The position numbers and the translations under genes are program-made. The notes under the pieces were generated by a model that saw only the letters and a program-made list of their open reading frames with translations, had not been told where the DNA came from and did not search any database. From Furfurilactobacillus milii (GTDB lineage Bacteria > Bacillota > Bacilli > Lactobacillales > Lactobacillaceae), in contig NZ_JAIWJF010000003.1 of the NCBI RefSeq assembly GCF_021654115.1, positions 62,001 to 126,000 of the forward strand: a stretch of DNA of 64,000 bases. Reading direction: 5' to 3'. Shown here in pieces: positions 5,715 through 28,562 of this stretch. Numbering within the stretch: position 1 is the first letter of the stretch; the number at the start of each line of letters is the position of its first letter.

Positions 5715-6845
5715 ATGAAGATCGCAGGATTCGGTGTTGAAGAATGGCTGAATAAGTGGGAAAAATCTGCTACTTACGATATCTCACAAAGTACGATTTC
5801 ATCCATGACTATGGCTGAATTGTTGAGCTTGGACGGTGTGAATGGCCAGACATTTTACGCATCGTTAAACAGAGAAAAAATGAATTACGGATGGATTGAA
5901 GGATCACCTGAATTTAAAAAAGAGGCAGCAAAATTATATCAACATGTACCTGCCGAAAATATTTTACAGACAAATGGAGCTACTGGTGCTAATCATCTGG
6001 CTTTGTATTCCCTGATTGAGCCCGGAGATCATGTCATTGCGGAATATCCAAGTTATCAGCAACTGTACGATATTCCTAAGTCTTTGGGAGCAATAGTAGA
6101 TTACTGGCACATTCGTGAAGACAATAATTGGAATCCAGACATTGAAGAGCTGAAGCAGTTAATTAAACCAAACACAAAAATGATTTGTTTGAATAACGCC
6201 AATAATCCGACAGGAACCATTTTAGATCGTAATTTACTTCAACAGATTGTTGAACTGGCCAAAGAGGTTGGCGCTTATGTTTTGGTGGATGAGGTTTACC
6301 TGCCGCTTGACGATCCAGACAGTTTTGTTTCAATTGCCGATTTGTATGACAAAGGCATTGCGACCAACTCGTTATCAAAGACATATTCTGTCCCGGGAAT
6401 CCGCTTGGGATGGACCGCGTCAAACAAAGAGGTCGCTGATATATTTCGCAAATATAGAGATTACACCATGATTTGCGCAGGGGTTTTCAATGATTTATTG
6501 GGAACTTATGTACTGAAAAATCGTGCACGTGTTTTGACTCGAAATTCTCAAATTGTGTTGCATAACTTGTCCATCTTGAAAGAGTGGGTGGCTCAAGAAC
6601 CTAAAGTTAGCATGATTTTTCCACGCGCAGTATCAACATCCTTTGTGAAGTTAGATATCCAACCTGAACAGACAGAGCAGTTTTGCATTGATCTGCTTAA
6701 AGATGAAGGCGTGTTGTTGGTACCTGGTAACCGTTTTGATATGCCTAGTCATGCACGGCTTGGTTACTGTACTGATACTGCAACGTTACAGGAAGGATTA
6801 AAACGTTTGTCGTCGTTTCTTCACAATAGCAAATACGCAAAGTAA
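5715..6845 (+). CDS. arcT: ADI-operon aminotransferase ArcT
   Basis: A 376-residue fold-type I PLP-dependent aminotransferase. The PLP-binding lysine is Lys222 in [10 protein letters not shown], and NNANNPTG and DEVY, which contact the cofactor, lie upstream. ArcT is a known but poorly defined member of ADI operons (for example in Lactobacillus sakei); its substrate has not been established and none is assigned here. The ATG at 5715 follows GGAGG at the proper distance; the GTG at 5703 overlaps that site and is rejected. The gene starts 12 bases after the arcD stop, indicating co-translation. Confidence 0.88.
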
Positions 6846-6865: not shown

Positions 6866-7804
6866 ATGGGTAAAAAAATTGTTGTTGCACTGGGAGGCAA
6901 TGCCATTCTGACGGATGATGCGTCTGCAACGGCGCAACAGAAAGCACTGCTTGAAACTGCTGAATATTTGGCAGAGTTCATAATCCAAGGGAATCAGTTA
7001 ATTGTTTCGCACGGTAATGGTCCGCAAGTTGGTAACTTGTTGTTGCAAATGGCCGGTGGATCGACCGATAAGAATCCAGCAATGCCACTAGATACAGATG
7101 TTGCAATGACACAAGGATCGATTGGTTACTGGCTTCAAAATGCTTTGGGGCGTGTCCTGCGTGAAAAAGGCATCGATAGAGATGTCGCAACTGTTGTTAC
7201 CCAAGTACTAGTTGATGCAAATGATCAGGCTTTTAGCAATCCCTCAAAACCGGTCGGACCATTTTATGATGAAGCTGGTATGAAAAAGGCCAAAGCCGCT
7301 AATTCAGATTTCACTTTTGTTGAAGATGCAGGCCGCGGGTATCGTCGAGTGGTTCCGTCACCAAGACCTGTTGGCGTTCAGGAGTATAGAACAATCAATA
7401 CCATGGTAGCGAATGATATTGTGCCGATATCTGTAGGTGGCGGCGGCGTGCCTGTCGTTAAAGACGGCAATCAGTTGGTAGGCCGTGAAGCTGTGATTGA
7501 TAAAGACTTTGCTTCGGAAAAGTTGGCAGAACTCGTTCATGCAGATCAACTTATTATTCTGACAGCGGTTGATAATATTTATGTCAATTTCAATAAGCCG
7601 GATCAGAAAAAATTAGAGCATGTAACTGTTGCTGAATTGAAACGATACATGGACGAAAATCAATTTGCAAAGGGTTCAATGTTACCAAAGGTGCAGGCCG
7701 CTATTGAGTTTGTTGAAAAAAGTGGCGGAACCGCAGTGGTGACATCGTTGCAGAACGTTGCTAATTATTTAAATGATGGCAGCGGAACGATTATTACTAA
7801 ATAA
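6866..7804 (+). CDS. arcC: Carbamate kinase (ADI pathway)
   Basis: It transfers phosphate from carbamoyl phosphate to ADP, giving ATP, CO2 and ammonia, the energy-yielding last step of the ADI pathway. The 312-residue protein begins with the nucleotide-binding [10 protein letters not shown] motif and has [10 protein letters not shown] near residue 50 and [14 protein letters not shown] near residue 153. It is closely similar to the second copy in the agmatine cluster (25489). The gene is preceded by AAAGAGG and lies 20 bases after arcT. Confidence 0.96.
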
Positions 7805-21439: not shown

Positions 21440-21721
21440 GATTTTAGTGGAGGTTTTGGATTCTCTTAGCTCTTTATGCATTTATCGACCAGATGCCTAT
21501 TCAAAATTTGAACAGCTATATAATCGACTGGCATTTATCTTAGTTCACCATTTGGTACCGACTCAAAACACTGTTTTTTTGGAACCATTAGAGGAGTTCC
21601 TGATGCAATAAAGGTTTATTCAGCTTAAGTTAATGTAACAAGGACTTGTCCAATATCAGAAAATTATCAATCACGTCCAAGTAAAAGTAGGCTCAAGGTG
21701 CAGACTACCACGAATAAAAAA
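21440..21721. other. Non-coding stretch between terminators
   Basis: No credible gene is visible in these roughly 280 bases. A TATAAT hexamer lies at 21519-21524 without a good -35 element, and the stretch ends at the strong hairpin at 21722. A short untranslated RNA is possible but not supported further. Confidence 0.3.
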
Positions 21722-21766
21722 GGGTGTAACATGTTTCGCCAAATGAAACACGTTACACCCTTTTTC
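21720..21766. terminator. Strong bidirectional terminator upstream of ptcA
   Basis: GGGTGTAACATGTTTC pairs with GAAACACGTTACACCC (one mismatch) around a CCAAAT loop, with A-tract before and T-tract after. It lies about 100 bases upstream of ptcA with no gene ending nearby, so it either insulates the agmatine operon or attenuates it. Confidence 0.8.
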
Positions 21767-21869
21767 TGATGCGTTTTGAATATTATGAAAGCGCTTCATT
21801 TTAACTGTGCTGCCCGTTATGCTGTCTTCGTAAGCAAGAAAAATAAATATCAAAAGGGAGCACATCATT

Positions 21870-22907
21870 ATGCAAAAACGTGATTTTATCGACACCAACA
21901 CTTATACCAAAGAAGAAATTCAATACATGATTGATTTGGGCATTAAATTAAAGCAGTCAATCAATGCAGGCTATTATCCGCAAGTATTAAAAAATAAAAC
22001 ATTAGGTATGATCTTTGAGCAATCATCAACACGTACCCGGACCTCAGCTGAAGCTGCAATGACAGAATTGGGTGGACACGCTCAATACTTAGCCCCTGGT
22101 CAAATTCAACTGGGTGGTCATGAGACTATTGAAGATACTTCGCATGTTCTAGGGAACATTGTAGACATCATTGGTGCACGGGTTGAACGTCACAAGACGG
22201 TTGCCGAAGTTGGTAAGTATGCTCAAGTACCAGTTGTTAACTTTATGAGTGACTATAACCATCCAACGCAAGAACTTGGTGACATCATCACAATGAGTGA
22301 GCATCTGCCAGAAGGTAAGAAATTAAGTGACTGCAAGATTGTCTTTGTTGGGGATGCAACACAGGTTTGTGTTTCAACGATGTTTATGGCAACCAAGATG
22401 GGCATGGACTTTGTTCAATTTGGACCAAAAGGATTCCAGATTAAGCCTGAAACGTTAGCGATTGGTAAAAAGAACGCTGAAGTATCTGGTGGTTCAGTTC
22501 TGGTTACTGAAGATGCTGATGAAGCGTTGAAGGATGCCGACTTTATCTATACAGATGTTTGGTACGGCTTGTATGAGTCAGAGTTGCCAAAGGACGAACG
22601 GATGAAGATCTTCTATCCAAAGTACCAAGTAAACGCCGATCTTGTTGCTAAGGCCTCAGATCATGTTAAATTCTTACACTGCCTGCCTGCATCACGTGGT
22701 GAGGAAGTCACAGATGAAGTTATTGATTCTGACTATTCATTAGCATGGGAAGAGGCTGGTAATCGAAAGACAGCCATGCGTGCAATCTTTACTTACTTAT
22801 TAAATCCACGCATCAAACATCCTTCAGATGCCGAAGCTAAAAAGTATCAAAGCGAAATTGACGATTTATTGGCCCACCAAGTGGACACCAACCTTGTCAG
22901 TGACTAA
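21870..22907 (+). CDS. ptcA: Putrescine carbamoyltransferase
   Basis: It converts N-carbamoylputrescine and phosphate to putrescine and carbamoyl phosphate, step 2 of the agmatine deiminase pathway. In 345 residues it has SSTRTRTS (residues 52-58), HCLPASRG at 270-277, and the [14 protein letters not shown] segment beginning at residue 232, plus a C-terminal helical tail. These last two features distinguish putrescine from ornithine carbamoyltransferases. GGGAG precedes the ATG. A palindromic cre-like sequence ATGAAAGCGCTTCAT lies at 21785-21799, suggesting catabolite control. Confidence 0.95.
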
Positions 22908-22952: not shown

Positions 22953-24377
22953 ATGAACAAGCAAAAGAAAAAGTTTCGGTTATTTGATGCGGTGCTAATG
23001 GCGGTCGTTGTGGTACTCGTTGTTGAATCAGCAGCACCGGCTGCAGCCATTGGACCATCACAGTTCTTTTGGTGGATTTTTCTACTAATTCTCTTCTTCA
23101 TTCCGTACGGACTCATCTCATCGGAATTAGGGACGACGTACGTTGGCGATGGTGGCTTATATGACTGGGTTAAACAAGCCTTTGGGCGTCGCTGGGGTGG
23201 TCGTTTGGCATGGCTCTATTGGTTAAATTATCCATTATGGATGGCCAGCCTTGGCGTGCTATTCGCGGAAGTTGCTGGACAAATATTCGGAGTTCACTTC
23301 AATACGTTCTGGACTATTATCATCGAACTTGCCTTCGTCTGGACGGTTGTTACATTAGGTAATAAACCAATCAGTGAAAGTAAATGGATTATGAATTTAG
23401 CGGCGTTCGCTAAAATATTTACGATATTGTCGTTGGGTATTATGGGGATTTATTTTGCAGCAACTAAAGGTTTAGCAAATAACTTTAGTGGAACCAATTT
23501 GCTACCGAAACTAAACCTTTCAAGTTTAAGTAACCCTTCGGTAATTATCTTCAATTTCTTGGGCTTTGAAGTAGTCGCAACTATGGCTGACGATATGGAT
23601 AATCCTAAGAAACAAATTCCACAGGCCATTATTTATGGTGGTATATTAATTGCTTTCTTCTATTTATTGGCTGCGTTCGGTATGGGCGCTGCTATTCCTA
23701 CCGATAAGTTGTCAGCGTCTTCTGGTTTGATTGATAGTTTCGTGCTGATGATTGGCCATATGAACTGGTTTGTCGTTATCATTGGCATTATGTTTCTATA
23801 CATTCTCGCATCAGAAATGGTTTCCTGGGCGCTAGGTGTTAATTACGTTGCTAACTATGCTGCTAAGGATCATGCATTACCGGCTATCTTCGGTAAAGAA
23901 GATGCTAAAGGAATGCCTGTGGGTACTGGGTATTTGAATGGGATTATTGCTTCAGTTTTAGTAGTGGCGTCGCCATTTATTCCAAATCAAAATATCTTCT
24001 GGGCATTCTTTGCATTAAATGTAGTGGCACTGCTGTTGTCGTACACGATGATGTTTCCAGCATTTTGGAAGTTACGACGTGATGATGCGCAACGCGAACG
24101 ACCATTTAAAGTACCCGGTGGGAAATTCATGATCAACCTTATGACATGGGTTCCTGAAGTATTACTTATTGCGACAATTTTGTTATCAATTTTACCGTTA
24201 AATGGGTCAGCATCAGAGTTGGCAAACAAAGTTCCGATTCTAATTGGTACCATTTTGGCAGTTATTGTCGGCGAAATCGTTGTTCGAGTTGCGGAACGAC
24301 AAGACGATTCAAGCACGAAAGATGAAAAGGTTTCTCAAAATTCAACTCATTCGGCGAATGTCAGCGGAAAGGACTAA
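22953..24377 (+). CDS. aguD: Agmatine/putrescine antiporter
   Basis: A 474-residue APC-superfamily membrane protein with about 12 membrane segments. The N-terminus has the altered helix-1 motif SAAPAAAIGPSQFFWW typical of AguD-type transporters rather than the GxGIF motif of ArcD. It exchanges extracellular agmatine for putrescine. It lies between ptcA and aguA in the standard AgDI gene order; spacing to aguA is 7 bases. The C-terminal tail is charged and serine-rich. Confidence 0.92.
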   Translation: MNKQKKKFRLFDAVLMAVVVVLVVESAAPAAAIGPSQFFWWIFLLILFFIPYGLISSELGTTYVGDGGLYDWVKQAFGRRWGGRLAWLYWLNYPLWMASLGVLFAEVAGQIFGVHFNTFWTIIIELAFVWTVVTLGNKPISESKWIMNLAAFAKIFTILSLGIMGIYFAATKGLANNFSGTNLLPKLNLSSLSNPSVIIFNFLGFEVVATMADDMDNPKKQIPQAIIYGGILIAFFYLLAAFGMGAAIPTDKLSASSGLIDSFVLMIGHMNWFVVIIGIMFLYILASEMVSWALGVNYVANYAAKDHALPAIFGKEDAKGMPVGTGYLNGIIASVLVVASPFIPNQNIFWAFFALNVVALLLSYTMMFPAFWKLRRDDAQRERPFKVPGGKFMINLMTWVPEVLLIATILLSILPLNGSASELANKVPILIGTILAVIVGEIVVRVAERQDDSSTKDEKVSQNSTHSANVSGKD

Positions 24378-24384
24378 CTAAATA

Positions 24385-25479
24385 ATGAAAACTTTAACGA
24401 GCACACCTCAGCAAGATGGGTACAGAATGCCCGGAGAATTTGAAGAACATCAAGGCGTTTACATTCTATGGTCGCAAAGACCTGATAACTGGCGTAACGG
24501 TGGTAAACCAGCTCAGCATACTTTTGTTAAAGTTGCAGAGGCCATTTCCCAATTCGAACATGTCACAGTTGGTGTCAATGATGATCAGTATGAGAATGCG
24601 CGAACAATGTTACCCGACAATGTTGAAGTCGTGGAAATTTCAAACAATGACTCTTGGGTACGGGATTGTGGTGCAACGTTTGTAAAAAACGATAAGGGCG
24701 GTCTACGTGCTGTGGATTGGACATTCAATTCATGGGGTGGATTAGTTGATGGCTTATATTTTCCATGGGATAAGGATGACCGTGTGGCCCAAAAAATGGC
24801 CGAGATGGAACACGTGGATCGCTACCGATTAGACGATTTCATTCTCGAAGGTGGTTCCATTCATGTGGATGGGGAAGGCACTTTAATTACAACAGAAGAA
24901 TGTCTTCTGTCGAAGGGTCGCAACGCGCAACTTTCAAAAGAACAAATCGAGGAAGTTCTAAAAACACACCTGAATCTCAAAAAGATTATTTGGCTCAAAA
25001 ACGGGATTTATAATGATGAGACTAATGGGCACGTGGATAACATTGCCAACTTTGTAAAGCCAGGGGTTGTCGCCCTGGCCTGGACAGACGATCAAAACGA
25101 CCCGCAATATCAAATTTCGAAAGAAAATCTAGATATTTTGGAACATGCTACCGATGCTAAAGGTCGCCAGATTAAAGTGGTTAAGTTAAATGTGCCAAAG
25201 CCTGTTTTGATTACCAAAGAAGAAAGTGAGGGCGTCGATGCAGTTGATGGAACCTTACCTCGGCAGGCCGGAGATCGTTTAGCTGCAAGTTACGTTAACT
25301 ACTACACGGCAAACGGCGGTATTGTCTACCCAACGTTTGGAGACCCGGCGGATGATAACGCGCAAAAAGTATTAGAACAATTGTATCCAGATCGCAAAGT
25401 AGTCGGGGTACCAGCTAGAGAAATTTTATTGGGCGGCGGCAATATTCACTGCATTACCCAACAGGTACCGAAAGCGTAG
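24385..25479 (+). CDS. aguA: Agmatine deiminase
   Basis: It hydrolyses agmatine to N-carbamoylputrescine and ammonia. The 364-residue protein carries the complete guanidine-modifying active site: WVRDCGATF near residue 92, [14 protein letters not shown] near residue 152, ETNGHVDN with His216, and the catalytic Cys356 in [11 protein letters not shown] near the C-terminus. It should therefore be active, unlike the paralogue at 26672. It follows aguD by 7 bases and overlaps the ribosome binding region of aguC. Confidence 0.95.
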
Positions 25480-25488
25480 GTGAAGAAT

Positions 25489-26457
25489 ATGGCAGGCAGA
25501 AAAATAGTTGTTGCTCTCGGTGGTAACGCAATTTTGACCAACGATGCCAGTGCTAAGGCTCAGCAAAACGCACTGCGCAAAACTGCTGCTTCATTAGTTC
25601 AGTTCGTTGAGCAAGGTGATCAGTTAGTGATTTCTCACGGTAATGGTCCTCAAGTTGGCAACTTGTTACTTCAGCAGGCCGCTGGCGCAACAGAAAAGAA
25701 TCCGGCAATGCCAATCGATTCCGCGGTTTCAATGACGCAAGGGAGTATCGGGTATTGGCTTCAAAATGCGATGGATGAGGCGCTGGCGGAAAAGGGTTTA
25801 GATAAGTCTGTAGCCACGGTTGTGACACAAGTTGAGGTTGATGCAGATGATCAGGCCTTTGCTAATCCTACAAAGCCAATTGGGCCTTTTTATAAGGCCG
25901 ATGAAGTCGCCCAGCAACGACTGGATCATCCAGAGTTTACGTTTGTTGAAGATGCGGGACGCGGTTATCGTCGAGTAGTGCCATCACCAAAGCCAATCGG
26001 CGTGGTTGAAGCCGATGTTATTAATCAGATGGTCGACGCTAATATTATTCCGATTTCTGTTGGTGGCGGCGGTGTTCCGGTTGTTAAAGATGGTTCACGA
26101 TATATTGGTCGTGAGGCCGTCATTGATAAGGACTTTGCTTCAGAAAAATTAGCCGAACTCATTCATGCGGATTTACTGATTATTCTGACCGCGGTTGATA
26201 ACGTTTATGTGAACTTCAATCAGGCAAATCAACAAAAGTTAACTGATGTAACGGTCGAGGAATTGAGCGATTATATCGAAGAAAAGCAATTTGCTCCTGG
26301 TTCGATGCTGCCTAAAATTCAAGCCGCAATGGATTTTGTAAATCACAGTGACCACGGTAAAACAGTAATCACGTCGCTTGACAATGTTGGTGAGTTTCTT
26401 ACCTCTGGCGCAGGTACAACGGTTATGAAGACACGCAATATAGTTCTGAACAAGTAA
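25489..26457 (+). CDS. aguC: Carbamate kinase (agmatine pathway)
   Basis: It makes ATP from the carbamoyl phosphate produced by putrescine carbamoyltransferase. The 322-residue protein matches arcC nearly throughout ([44 protein letters not shown]) but has a slightly longer C-terminus. ATG 25489 has AGGTGA spanning the aguA stop as ribosome binding site, so it is translationally coupled; the in-frame GTG at 25480 overlaps that site and is rejected. Having separate carbamate kinases for ADI and AgDI is usual. Confidence 0.93.
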
Positions 26458-26493: not shown

Positions 26494-26538
26494 AAAAATG
26501 CACTGATTTTCTACGGAATAGGAAATCGGTGCATTTTG
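26494..26538 (+). terminator. Terminator after aguC
   Basis: AAAATGCACTGATTTTC pairs with GAAATCGGTGCATTTT around an 8-10 base loop. It separates ptcA-aguDAC from aguA2-aguR, giving the latter their own promoter. Confidence 0.8.
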
Positions 26539-26592: not shown

Positions 26593-26628
26593 ACCGTCGT
26601 GGCATCATATTGATGACGTAATTACTGT

Positions 26629-26655
26629 ATATTTGTAAAGTGCCATTACAAATAT
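26629..26655. promoter_or_regulatory. Perfect 10-bp inverted repeat before the second aguA gene
   Basis: ATATTTGTAA and TTACAAATAT are perfect complements separated by seven bases and end just before the AGGAGG ribosome binding site. It could be an operator or an mRNA hairpin that affects ribosome access. Confidence 0.55.
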
Positions 26656-26671
26656 ACTCAGGAGGAAATTC

Positions 26672-27778
26672 ATGAAATTAACTACTTTGCCACCAACTAG
26701 TGGTGTCAGGTTTGTTGCTGAATTTGAAAGACAGACAGATGCTTATTTGATTTGGCCTGAAAGACCCGACAATTGGCGAGATGGTGCCAAACCAGCCCAA
26801 CGTGCGTTTACAAAGCTAGCCAACCTGATCGGTAAATATGAGCCAACAACAATGTTGGTTTCCAGCAAACAATATTTAAATGCTAGGCATCTATTAGACG
26901 ATCATATACGTGTTTTAGAGATGAGCAGTAATGACGCGTTTATTAAAGATACAGGCCCGATTTATGTCGAAGCAGACGGTAAACTTCAAGCAATTGATTT
27001 TGGCTTCAATGCATGGGGTGGATTATTGGATGGCTTGTATTTTCCGTGGGATCAAGATCAGCTTATTAGCGGGAAGTTAGCCGAGCTGAACAACATTCCA
27101 TATTATGTAGAACATAATTTAATCGTCGAGGGGTGTTCTATTATCACCGATGGGCAAGGCACCTTGATCACTACTGAGGATGTTTTACTGTCTGAAGGCC
27201 GTAACCCAGGTCAGTCAAAATCGGAAGTAGAAATGATGTTAAAAAGATACCTTGGCATAAAGAAAATTATTTGGTTAAAGCATGGCTTCTTTTTAGATGA
27301 AACGAATGGGGCCATCGATAATATTGTCAATTTCATTGCGCCGGGTGAAGTGGTGATTACTTGGACTGAGGATAAAAAGGATCCAATGTTCCAAACTGTT
27401 CGGCAAATTGAAAGAGCTTTGTTAAAGGCGAAAGATGCGTATAATCGTTCCTTAAAAATTCACCATTTGAATATGCCAAAAGTGCAGACTGTCGGAAAAG
27501 TAGAAAGCGAGTCAATTGATCCAATAAATGGTTTGTTGCCGCGGACTCCAGGACAACGGTTAACGACTAGTTATGTTAATTATGTATTGATTAATGATGC
27601 TGTGATTGTGCCTCAGTTTGGGGATAGCAATGACGCCGTTGCGGTAGACAAATTACAAGGATTGTTTCCTAAGCGACGCGTTTTACCGTTCAATGCACAT
27701 GAAATGATTTTAGGCGGTGGTGGCCTACACACCGTTGTTCACACGCGCCCTGATACATCCTATCCTGGAGGTGAGTAA
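26672..27778 (+). CDS. AguA-like protein lacking the catalytic Cys and His (probable pseudoenzyme)
   Basis: A 368-residue paralogue of agmatine deiminase, clearly homologous over its full length ([42 protein letters not shown]). Key residues are changed: NGHVDN of the active copy reads NGAIDN with Ala214 in place of the catalytic His, and GGGNIHC reads GGGGLHT with Thr354 in place of the catalytic Cys. The frame is intact, so it has not decayed at random. It lies directly upstream of the regulator gene, behind its own terminator-bounded promoter. It may bind agmatine as a sensor or partner, which is an inference. A second aguA-like gene is also known in the Lactobacillus brevis agmatine locus. 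Confidence 0.85.
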   Translation: MKLTTLPPTSGVRFVAEFERQTDAYLIWPERPDNWRDGAKPAQRAFTKLANLIGKYEPTTMLVSSKQYLNARHLLDDHIRVLEMSSNDAFIKDTGPIYVEADGKLQAIDFGFNAWGGLLDGLYFPWDQDQLISGKLAELNNIPYYVEHNLIVEGCSIITDGQGTLITTEDVLLSEGRNPGQSKSEVEMMLKRYLGIKKIIWLKHGFFLDETNGAIDNIVNFIAPGEVVITWTEDKKDPMFQTVRQIERALLKAKDAYNRSLKIHHLNMPKVQTVGKVESESIDPINGLLPRTPGQRLTTSYVNYVLINDAVIVPQFGDSNDAVAVDKLQGLFPKRRVLPFNAHEMILGGGGLHTVVHTRPDTSYPGGE

Positions 27779-27779
27779 C

Positions 27780-28562
27780 ATGAACTTTTTTGAAATTGTC
27801 AGTACTCACTTGCAAAGTTTAACGGATAATGAACGAAAGTTATTTGATTACATTGTTAAAAACATGAGCGACGTTCAGGGAATGTCGATTCGTGAAGTTT
27901 CAGCGACTTGCTTTGTATCAACGGCGACATTTTTAAGATTTGTTAGAAAAATCGGTTTTTCTGGATACAGTGAATTCATCACGGTTTTAAAGTTCACGAC
28001 ACGTGACAATGCCAGTGAGGCGCGGGATCAGGCCAATAATCAATTTGTTGTTAATCAATCTAGCTATCGAGAAGATTATCTTAAGAATATTGAAGAAACA
28101 GTTCATGTGCTTCGACCTGAAGTGCTTCATCAAATCACGGCAAAGTTATCACACACGAGAACGATTTTTATTTTTGCGCGTGGTCTAAGTAAGAGTGCGG
28201 CAAGGTACATTACAAATCTTTACCAATTAGCTGGATTCAACGTTAGTTTTCCTGAAGATCAATTATATAGGCGCGCAGCAATGGACCACATTACTGCGGA
28301 AGACTTAATCCTTATTATCGACTATACGGGTGAGGAGGTTGAGTTCGTTAATCTTATTCAACAGGTTTTTAAAGAGCCCCTAAATCGGCCAATGGTGCTG
28401 TCGATTACAGGAGCTGACAACAACACCATTCAAAACCTGAGCGATATTAATTTGTATACTTTTTTTGACCAAATCAGATCCAAAGAGGGCGTCGAAATCA
28501 GTTCCCGTGTGACCGCAATTGTGATTATGGAATTGATACTCTATCAGTGGCTGGACGAGTAG
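27780..28562 (+). CDS. aguR: RpiR-family regulator of the agmatine cluster
   Basis: A 260-residue regulator with an N-terminal HTH_6 domain (residues about 1-75, including EVSATCFVSTATFLRFVRKIGFSG) and a C-terminal SIS phosphosugar-binding-like domain (about 115-245). AguR of the L. brevis agmatine locus is also RpiR-type, in contrast to the LuxR-type AguR of enterococci and lactococci. ATG 27780 has GGAGGTGA inside the end of the preceding gene; the longer frame from 27717 overlaps that gene and is rejected. The one-base gap to the preceding stop indicates coupled translation with the aguA paralogue. Confidence 0.82.
   Translation: MNFFEIVSTHLQSLTDNERKLFDYIVKNMSDVQGMSIREVSATCFVSTATFLRFVRKIGFSGYSEFITVLKFTTRDNASEARDQANNQFVVNQSSYREDYLKNIEETVHVLRPEVLHQITAKLSHTRTIFIFARGLSKSAARYITNLYQLAGFNVSFPEDQLYRRAAMDHITAEDLILIIDYTGEEVEFVNLIQQVFKEPLNRPMVLSITGADNNTIQNLSDINLYTFFDQIRSKEGVEISSRVTAIVIMELILYQWLDE

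Follow-up and report, generated by a model that had tools for sequence, protein, structure and literature searches.

We conclude that aguA2, the second agmatine deiminase (AgDI) homolog in a 64,000-nucleotide stretch of Furfurilactobacillus milii DNA (the window), encodes a maintained protein that is very probably not an AgDI. The gene is a member of one AguA2 clade present in Listeria, Enterococcus and Lactobacillaceae, and is no private oddity of Furfurilactobacillus. AguA2 probably senses or handles agmatine rather than degrading it. The reading that we favor, with a probability of roughly 45%, is that AguA2 is an agmatine-binding pseudoenzyme that tunes AguR, the RpiR-family regulator encoded directly downstream, through agmatine. 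We infer the following mechanism. AguA2 would be an AgDI fold that has lost catalysis and retained an acidic pocket for both ends of the agmatine molecule, and it would be made together with AguR from their own two-gene transcript. It would bind agmatine without turnover and, whether bound or free, might alter AguR by contact or change how much agmatine reaches AguR. As a result, ptcA-aguDAC would respond to agmatine and would not be shut off by its own enzyme consuming the signal. If true, AguA2 would explain agmatine sensing in RpiR-type agu operons.

Two elements of this picture are already in print, namely the inactivity of Listeria AguA2 and the description of L. brevis aguA1 alone as active. 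Our searches of open-licence literature turned up nothing on residue loss across the family, on the conserved pocket or on AguA2 as a pseudoenzyme, and the titles and opening sections listed included no functional work on AguA2 and AguR as a pair. Many genomes annotate aguA2 as a second agmatine deiminase, so the ability of food bacteria and of Listeria to make putrescine may be misjudged.

The aguA2 gene of the window and its clade

The features considered here are collected in Table 1. The intact frame of aguA2 given in the preliminary description was verified in open reading frame, length and coordinates, and its direct coupling to aguR was confirmed: 1 nt separates the aguA2 stop codon (TAA, 27776-27778) from the aguR ATG, and the gap between aguC and aguA2 is 214 nt. 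The product scores above the cut-offs of TIGR03380 (479.9 bits; cut-off 381.8) and PF04371 (331 bits; cut-off 25) and under that of NF010070 (430 bits; cut-off 483). It is 47% identical to AguA1, encoded upstream, 98% identical to another F. milii copy (locus L156) and 96% identical to a F. rossiae copy (L157).

Table 1. Features of the window and of two distant loci (L222 and L223)
Feature	Position	Strand	Basis or remark
ptcA, putrescine carbamoyltransferase	21870..22907	+	TIGR04384, 566 bits
aguD, candidate agmatine/putrescine antiporter	22953..24377	+	Amino-acid permease family; function from position
aguA1, agmatine deiminase with Gly157, His216 and Cys356	24385..25479	+	Profile match and residue check
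aguC, carbamate kinase	25480..26457	+	TIGR00746, 415 bits
aguA2, catalytically degenerate agmatine deiminase paralog, pseudoenzyme candidate, 368 aa	26672..27778	+	Profiles, AlphaFold2
aguR, RpiR-family regulator (HTH_6 and SIS)	27780..28562	+	SIS loop DYTGEE replacing SxSGxT
Predicted AguR-type operator 5' of ptcA	21717..21765	.	21-nt arms, 7-nt spacer
Terminator-like hairpin, aguC/aguA2 interval	26495..26537	+	
Perfect 12-nt dyad just 5' of aguA2	26627..26657	.	7-nt spacer
Ala214 codon GCC	27311..27313	+	Catalytic His218 position of E. faecalis AgDI
Thr354 codon ACC	27731..27733	+	Nucleophile Cys357 position
Cys155 codon	27134..27136	+	Gly159 position
L222 rpiR and AguA-like pair	L222:9070-10921		
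L223 rpiR and AguA-like pair	rpiR at 6629, AguA-like at 7341		

Aligned with E. faecalis AgDI, whose numbering we use below, the window AguA2 has Cys155 for G159, Ala214 for H218, Gly351 for N354, Thr354 for C357 and Phe90 for W93, and has Trp115 as the equivalent of W119. An AgDI is expected to have the catalytic Cys and His, and the window protein has Thr354 and Ala214 in their places. The exchange of these two residues relative to His216 and Cys356 of the active copy had been described previously and was confirmed by our residue check. The accompanying claim that the substrate-binding tryptophans are kept is true of W119 and not of W93. Two active-site changes come in addition: the second Gly of the Glu-Gly-Gly motif (Gly157 in AguA1) has become Cys155, and the Asn of GGGN has become Gly351. 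Ala and Thr occur in all four Furfurilactobacillus genomes with a full locus, and the residues on the guanidinium side are those most eroded in the AguA2 of this genus (W93F, H218A, C357T and N354G). A sequencing error at both codons, named in the preliminary description as something that would undo its interpretation, is ruled out, as three congeners (L057, L058 and L059) carry the same Ala and Thr.

Among 301 genomes of the family a protein search matched 49, and among 395 of the order it matched 105. We took 100 stretches from genomes with matches, a set that omits weak matches and most single-copy streptococcal-type genomes (family f4, represented by two), and added 80 named loci, the best 80 of 221 obtained through an alignment of 20 AguR sequences. 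Removal of identical AguA1 and RpiR stretches reduced these 180 loci to 129, with 78 full-length AguA2, 116 other AguA and 100 RpiR sequences. We called AguA2 whichever copy lies immediately 5' of rpiR, so that counts of linkage are partly circular and the trees are not. The 78 AguA2 do not include L063 and L091, which have no full-length AguA2, or L096, where an AguA1 lies beside a partial rpiR; L220, with a fragmented AguA2, is outside the residue counts.

In a tree built without the adjacency label, 55 AguA2 rows formed one group that was joined only by the fragmented L220, and a careful tree of 55 rows supported the AguA2 clade at 100/99. The window AguA2 groups with the second copies of Listeria and L. 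brevis. Within the clade Listeria branches first, followed by L135, the enterococci and the Lactobacillaceae. Wherever the sequence suffices, an AguA2 locus has an AguA1 too (74 of 78 are paired), and the remaining four are explained by length or contig-edge filters or by a broken AguA1. AguA2 itself is broken in two loci: in L091 it is split into two open frames, and in L220 it is one of several fragmented genes.

Loss and retention of residues in AguA2

The order of loss on the tree is Gly159, then His218, then Cys357. Gly159 is the only one of the three positions to be replaced in every AguA2, by Cys in 73 proteins and by Ser in the other 5. At position 218, 10 proteins still have His and the other 68 have Asp (62), Ala (4) or Asn (2), and position 357 holds Cys in 35, Thr in 29, Ser in 14 and nothing else, so that 43 are without Cys. 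His and Cys are both gone in 43 proteins, His alone in 25, neither in 10 and Cys alone in none. The fewest changes on the AguA2 tree are 2 at position 159, 4 at 218 and 3 at 357. The ten proteins of the Cys-His-Cys type comprise nine from Listeria-type loci and that of L135. Among the other AguA, 113 of 115 have Gly-His-Cys, the exceptions being L222 and L223. What had been viewed as a targeted loss of catalysis in the window gene is therefore older, stepwise and clade-wide (78, 68 and 43 of 78 at the three positions).

Like the window gene, Listeria monocytogenes aguA2 (lmo0040) encodes a second AgDI homolog and lies 5' of an RpiR gene (lmo0041). The Listeria AguA2 proteins belong to the same clade and have the same Gly159-to-Cys change, but they retain His218 and Cys357, and the window copy is without both of these and without W93. 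According to PMC7698193 and PMC8811131, both citing Cheng 2013, Listeria AguA2 has no AgDI activity. Since the protein is reportedly inactive though His and Cys are present, the Gly159 change, or something else, sufficed by inference to stop the reaction in Listeria-type AguA2. The residue at the Gly159 column was reportedly implicated by Cheng in 2013. Judged by its residues, the window copy would be inactive as well. Levilactobacillus brevis has a second putative AgDI beside aguR in the same operon as the window; only aguA1 was described as an active enzyme there, and AguR as a putative regulator (PMC3499163). The L. brevis AguA2 (L060/L177 and L071/L182) has Cys159, Asp218 and Thr357, in contrast to the window protein with Ala at 218.

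The remainder of the active site has been conserved. D91, D96, E157, E214, D220, R294 and H356 are retained in all 78 AguA2 and W119 in 77, and the W93 position has kept Trp in 61 proteins and has Phe in the other 17. In Medicago AIH, to which AguA2 was matched by alignment and motif position, the equivalents of D91, E214, D96, D220, W93 and W119 line the channel or hold agmatine or an analog, and the equivalent of His218 also touches the guanidinium (PMC6447857). Based on the residue counts and this match, the catalytic residues have been lost while most of the ligand-holding ones stay, with His218 as the exception. An AgDI whose nucleophile is changed to Ser can hold substrate, as indicated by the title of PDB entry 6b2w, which names Campylobacter jejuni C315S agmatine deiminase with substrate bound.

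AguA2 is constrained, but less so than AguA1. For 29 non-independent pairs drawn from 28 loci, with a synonymous distance below 1.5 in all three genes, the median dN/dS was 0.020 for AguA1, 0.055 for AguA2 and 0.023 for RpiR. AguA2 values ranged from 0.023 to 0.124 and were higher than those of AguA1 in 29 of 29 pairs; the window AguA2 compared to two sister species gave 0.124 and 0.059. The preliminary description had suggested dN/dS as a check, and the outcome is strong purifying selection (median 0.055) and no neutral evolution. In the 74 paired loci, 60 of 353 sites are invariant in AguA2 and 168 of 353 in AguA1, and E179, H268 and N289 are conserved more in AguA2 than in AguA1.

This conservation bears on two alternatives. 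One is that AguA2 has become a decaying duplicate without function, as its faster evolution relative to AguA1 and the broken copies of L091 and L220 could suggest; against this, the protein has been retained since the ancestor shared by the copies of Listeria, enterococci and lactobacilli, and it has 60 invariant sites. We regard this explanation as highly improbable and rejected decay on the dN/dS range of all 29 pairs. The other is that AguA2 is still an enzyme, with a different guanidino or amide substrate or a different mechanism, in which residue 357 and Asp218 would form a remodeled site. The limitation of position 357 to Cys, Thr or Ser, the presence of Asp218 in 62 of 78 proteins, the 60 invariant sites and the three positions conserved above AguA1 could all be accommodated in this way. 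However, the window copy has Ala at 218 and Thr354, the Listeria proteins retain His and Cys yet are reported to be without AgDI activity, and we know of no pentein hydrolase that works without Cys and His. An enzymatic role of this kind appears unlikely.

An AlphaFold2 model of the window AguA2, made with 47 AguA2 sequences as input, reached a mean pLDDT of 88.7 and a pTM of 0.90, and a Foldseek search found a pentein fold with E. faecalis AgDI (2JER) as the nearest solved structure (TM 0.92). Two pocket loops, 116-121 and 209-212, have pLDDT below 50, so the shape of the AguA2 pocket is not established by the model. Taken together, the intact frame, the clade-wide catalytic loss, the purifying selection, the predicted fold and the invariant pocket acids support the earlier proposal of a maintained pseudoenzyme.

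The predicted aguA2-aguR unit and AguR operator

The gap between aguA2 and rpiR is -4 to 17 nt in all 78 loci, given script-assigned starts and loci that were chosen by adjacency. Of 73 loci, 40, the window among them, have a terminator-like hairpin in the interval that separates aguA2 from the gene ahead of it, compared to 0.8 expected from mononucleotide shuffles. From these gaps and hairpins, aguA2-aguR is predicted to be a transcription unit separate from the catabolic operon. Expression data in the literature are compatible with such a separate unit without proving it: in L. buchneri expression of the four catabolic genes shifts in concert, and the second AgDI is absent from the list in the cited part of the report (PMC4521753), and in Pediococcus claussenii grown in beer aguD was up 269-fold, aguA1 202-fold, aguB 90-fold and aguC 64-fold (PMC3765258). 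A role of the dyad just 5' of aguA2 as an AguR autoregulatory site is not supported, as it differs from the ptcA motif and is found only in two close species, recurring in the F. milii and F. rossiae loci L057 and L058 and being absent from L059. When up to one mismatch is allowed, 3 of 78 loci have a ptcA-type operator 5' of aguA2, near the 1.7% of shuffled sequences, and the motif is not enriched there.

The layout is relevant to the possibility that AguA2 is a regulatory subunit of AguA1, forming mixed oligomers that would tune its activity or stability. Dead paralogs that regulate a live enzyme are known, as for prozyme (PMC5201418 and PMC6221367). All AguA2 loci with enough sequence have AguA1, and the evolutionary rates of the two proteins covary (0.28, p 0.014). 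In rates along the 75 usable branches no single partner of AguA2 stands out, the values being 0.39 for AguA2-RpiR, 0.34 for AguA2-AguD, 0.33 for PTC-RpiR and 0.28 for AguA2-AguA1. The tight linkage of aguA2 is to aguR and not to aguA1, a terminator-like hairpin sets it apart from the operon in 40 of 73 loci, and AguA1 works alone in lineages lacking AguA2. By analogy with prozyme, a role as AguA1 subunit is conceivable but unlikely. The Trypanosoma prozyme of AdoMetDC resembles AguA2 as a catalytically dead paralog that regulates polyamine metabolism, and differs from it in acting on an enzyme partner without a neighboring transcription factor. The prozyme fold is unrelated to that of AguA2.

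AguR of the window contains the HTH_6 (PF01418, 63.9 bits) and SIS (PF01380, 57.6 bits) domains. A motif TGTTnC-N7-GnAACA is located about 125-165 nt 5' of the ptcA start; in the window its core, TGTTTC-N7-GAAACA, has no mismatch and forms the center of the inverted repeat with 21-nt arms. The motif is present in 68 of 74 aguA2-bearing loci if up to one mismatch is allowed (0.1% in shuffles), and in 74 of 74 if up to two are allowed (11.8% in shuffles). Of the loci without a full-length rpiR, 1 of 19 has the motif with at most one mismatch, namely L220, whose rpiR is fragmented, and two more (L136 and L148) have it with two mismatches. We consider this operator-like dyad 5' of ptcA to be the presumed AguR operator.

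Other elements are also seen in this region. A cre-like sequence, ATGAAAGCGCTTCATT, is seen by eye at 21787-21802, downstream of the presumed AguR operator and ahead of the ptcA start, and similar sequences were noted by eye at this place in many relatives. In many enterococcal and listerial loci, L102, L106, L115, L123 and L130 among them, a hairpin-like element around ACTCGAGT was noted by eye about 50 nt before ptcA. Its outer stem reads GTC/GAC in the enterococcal loci and GGC/GCC in the listerial ones, a pattern suggestive of covariation, and nothing obvious of this type is present at 21830-21860 of the window.

The SIS domain of AguR lacks SxSGxT, which we take to be the phosphosugar loop of this domain. 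Among 78 AguR sequences, the last position of the loop is Asp in 68, Asn in 6 and Glu in 4, and a Glu two residues past the loop is retained in all 78; four distant RpiR loci retain SxSGET. The loop is also altered in Bacillaceae AguR that occur without any aguA2, which indicates that the ligand site of AguR, as judged from this loop, changed before or without AguA2. This speaks for AguR binding a cation itself, with AguA2 as a presumptive added modulator.

Loci with aguR and without aguA2 are instructive in this respect. In Listeria aquatica (L121), L. floridensis (L133), L. valentina (L132), L. kieliensis (L131) and L. grayi (L137), five species in all, rpiR and the operator with 0 or 1 mismatch are present and aguA2 is missing. 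In four of the five loci L209-L213, which come from Neobacillus, Bacillus and Mesobacillus, an AguR with an altered loop stands first in an agu cluster that has only one AguA; the fifth, L212, has rpiR only. The motif precedes aguD, the first catabolic gene of these clusters, in L209 (one mismatch) and L210 (none), and no operator motif was found within 250 nt in L211 and L213. Since aguR occurs without aguA2 in five Listeria and four Bacillaceae loci, aguA2 is no obligate part of AguR action.

The five Listeria species, in which aguA2 was lost while aguR stays, are also what would be expected if AguA2 were unrelated to AguR, for example as a buffer of agmatine or polyamines or as a moonlighting protein, the pairing with aguR being an old operon order. 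We consider this quite unlikely, because the -4 to 17 nt pairing is kept in 78 of 78 loci from three families, in which aguC and aguD vary or move. Tuning of AguR by AguA2 has points against it as well: AguR may bind the amine itself, in which case no co-sensor would be needed, aguA2 carries no ptcA-type operator of its own, the rate covariation of AguA2 with RpiR is of the same kind as that of AguA2-AguD and PTC-RpiR, and AguA2 evolves faster than AguA1, has an eroded guanidinium side in Furfurilactobacillus and is broken in two loci.

Comparable regulators and a possible second case

Previous work has linked RpiR-type regulators to agmatine genes. An RpiR-like AguR co-localized with these genes and its regulon were predicted for Lactobacillaceae (PMC3616900); the regulator is of the same kind as in the window, and the cited part of that study makes no mention of AguA2. 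RpiR genes near AgDI genes were noted in L. sakei, P. claussenii and L. monocytogenes in 2013, in an article according to which functional data on them did not yet exist (PMC3796520). The same source describes AguR of E. faecalis, which regulates the agmatine deiminase operon as we propose for the window AguR and is a different kind of regulator from RpiR.

A pair of similar composition may lie outside the clade. In the gut bacteria Ruminococcaceae bacterium D5 (L222) and Yanshouia hominis (L223), an rpiR gene, whose product is 34% identical to that of the window, is followed directly by an AguA homolog with Cys159, Ser357, Phe93 and Tyr119 and with His218 retained. Neither ptcA nor aguD was found beside the pair in the fetched stretches. 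In a survey of 295 Oscillospirales genomes, 20 had a match, and the 19 besides D5 (G623) retain Gly159, His218 and Cys357; Y. hominis (G624) was found outside this survey. The best tree places L222 and L223 outside AguA2, and a single common clade is not rejected (p-AU 0.33). The pair may represent a second origin of a regulator combined with a dead AgDI.

More broadly, AguA2 could exemplify the conversion of a catabolic enzyme into a ligand-handling partner of the transcription factor of its own pathway, across a large clade of Lactobacillales and Listeria, by duplication, attachment to the regulator, catalytic loss in a fixed order, retention of the pocket and a possible second origin. We put this forward as a tentative generalization and regard it as more doubtful than the tuning of AguR itself. 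If the sensing role is true, AguA2 would provide a graded natural series from enzyme to regulator, with residues present, one lost and two lost, in which ligand binding, activity and transcription control could be measured stage by stage.

Several AguA1 genes in the sample have unusual frames. In Enterococcus lactis (L119, the same locus as L200), aguD and aguA1 are apparently one 847-codon frame, which could be a fusion, a lost stop codon or an assembly error. In Enterococcus crotali (L190) and Lentilactobacillus hilgardii (L203), AguA1 is split into two frames and AguA2 is intact, the splits being either real breaks or draft errors.
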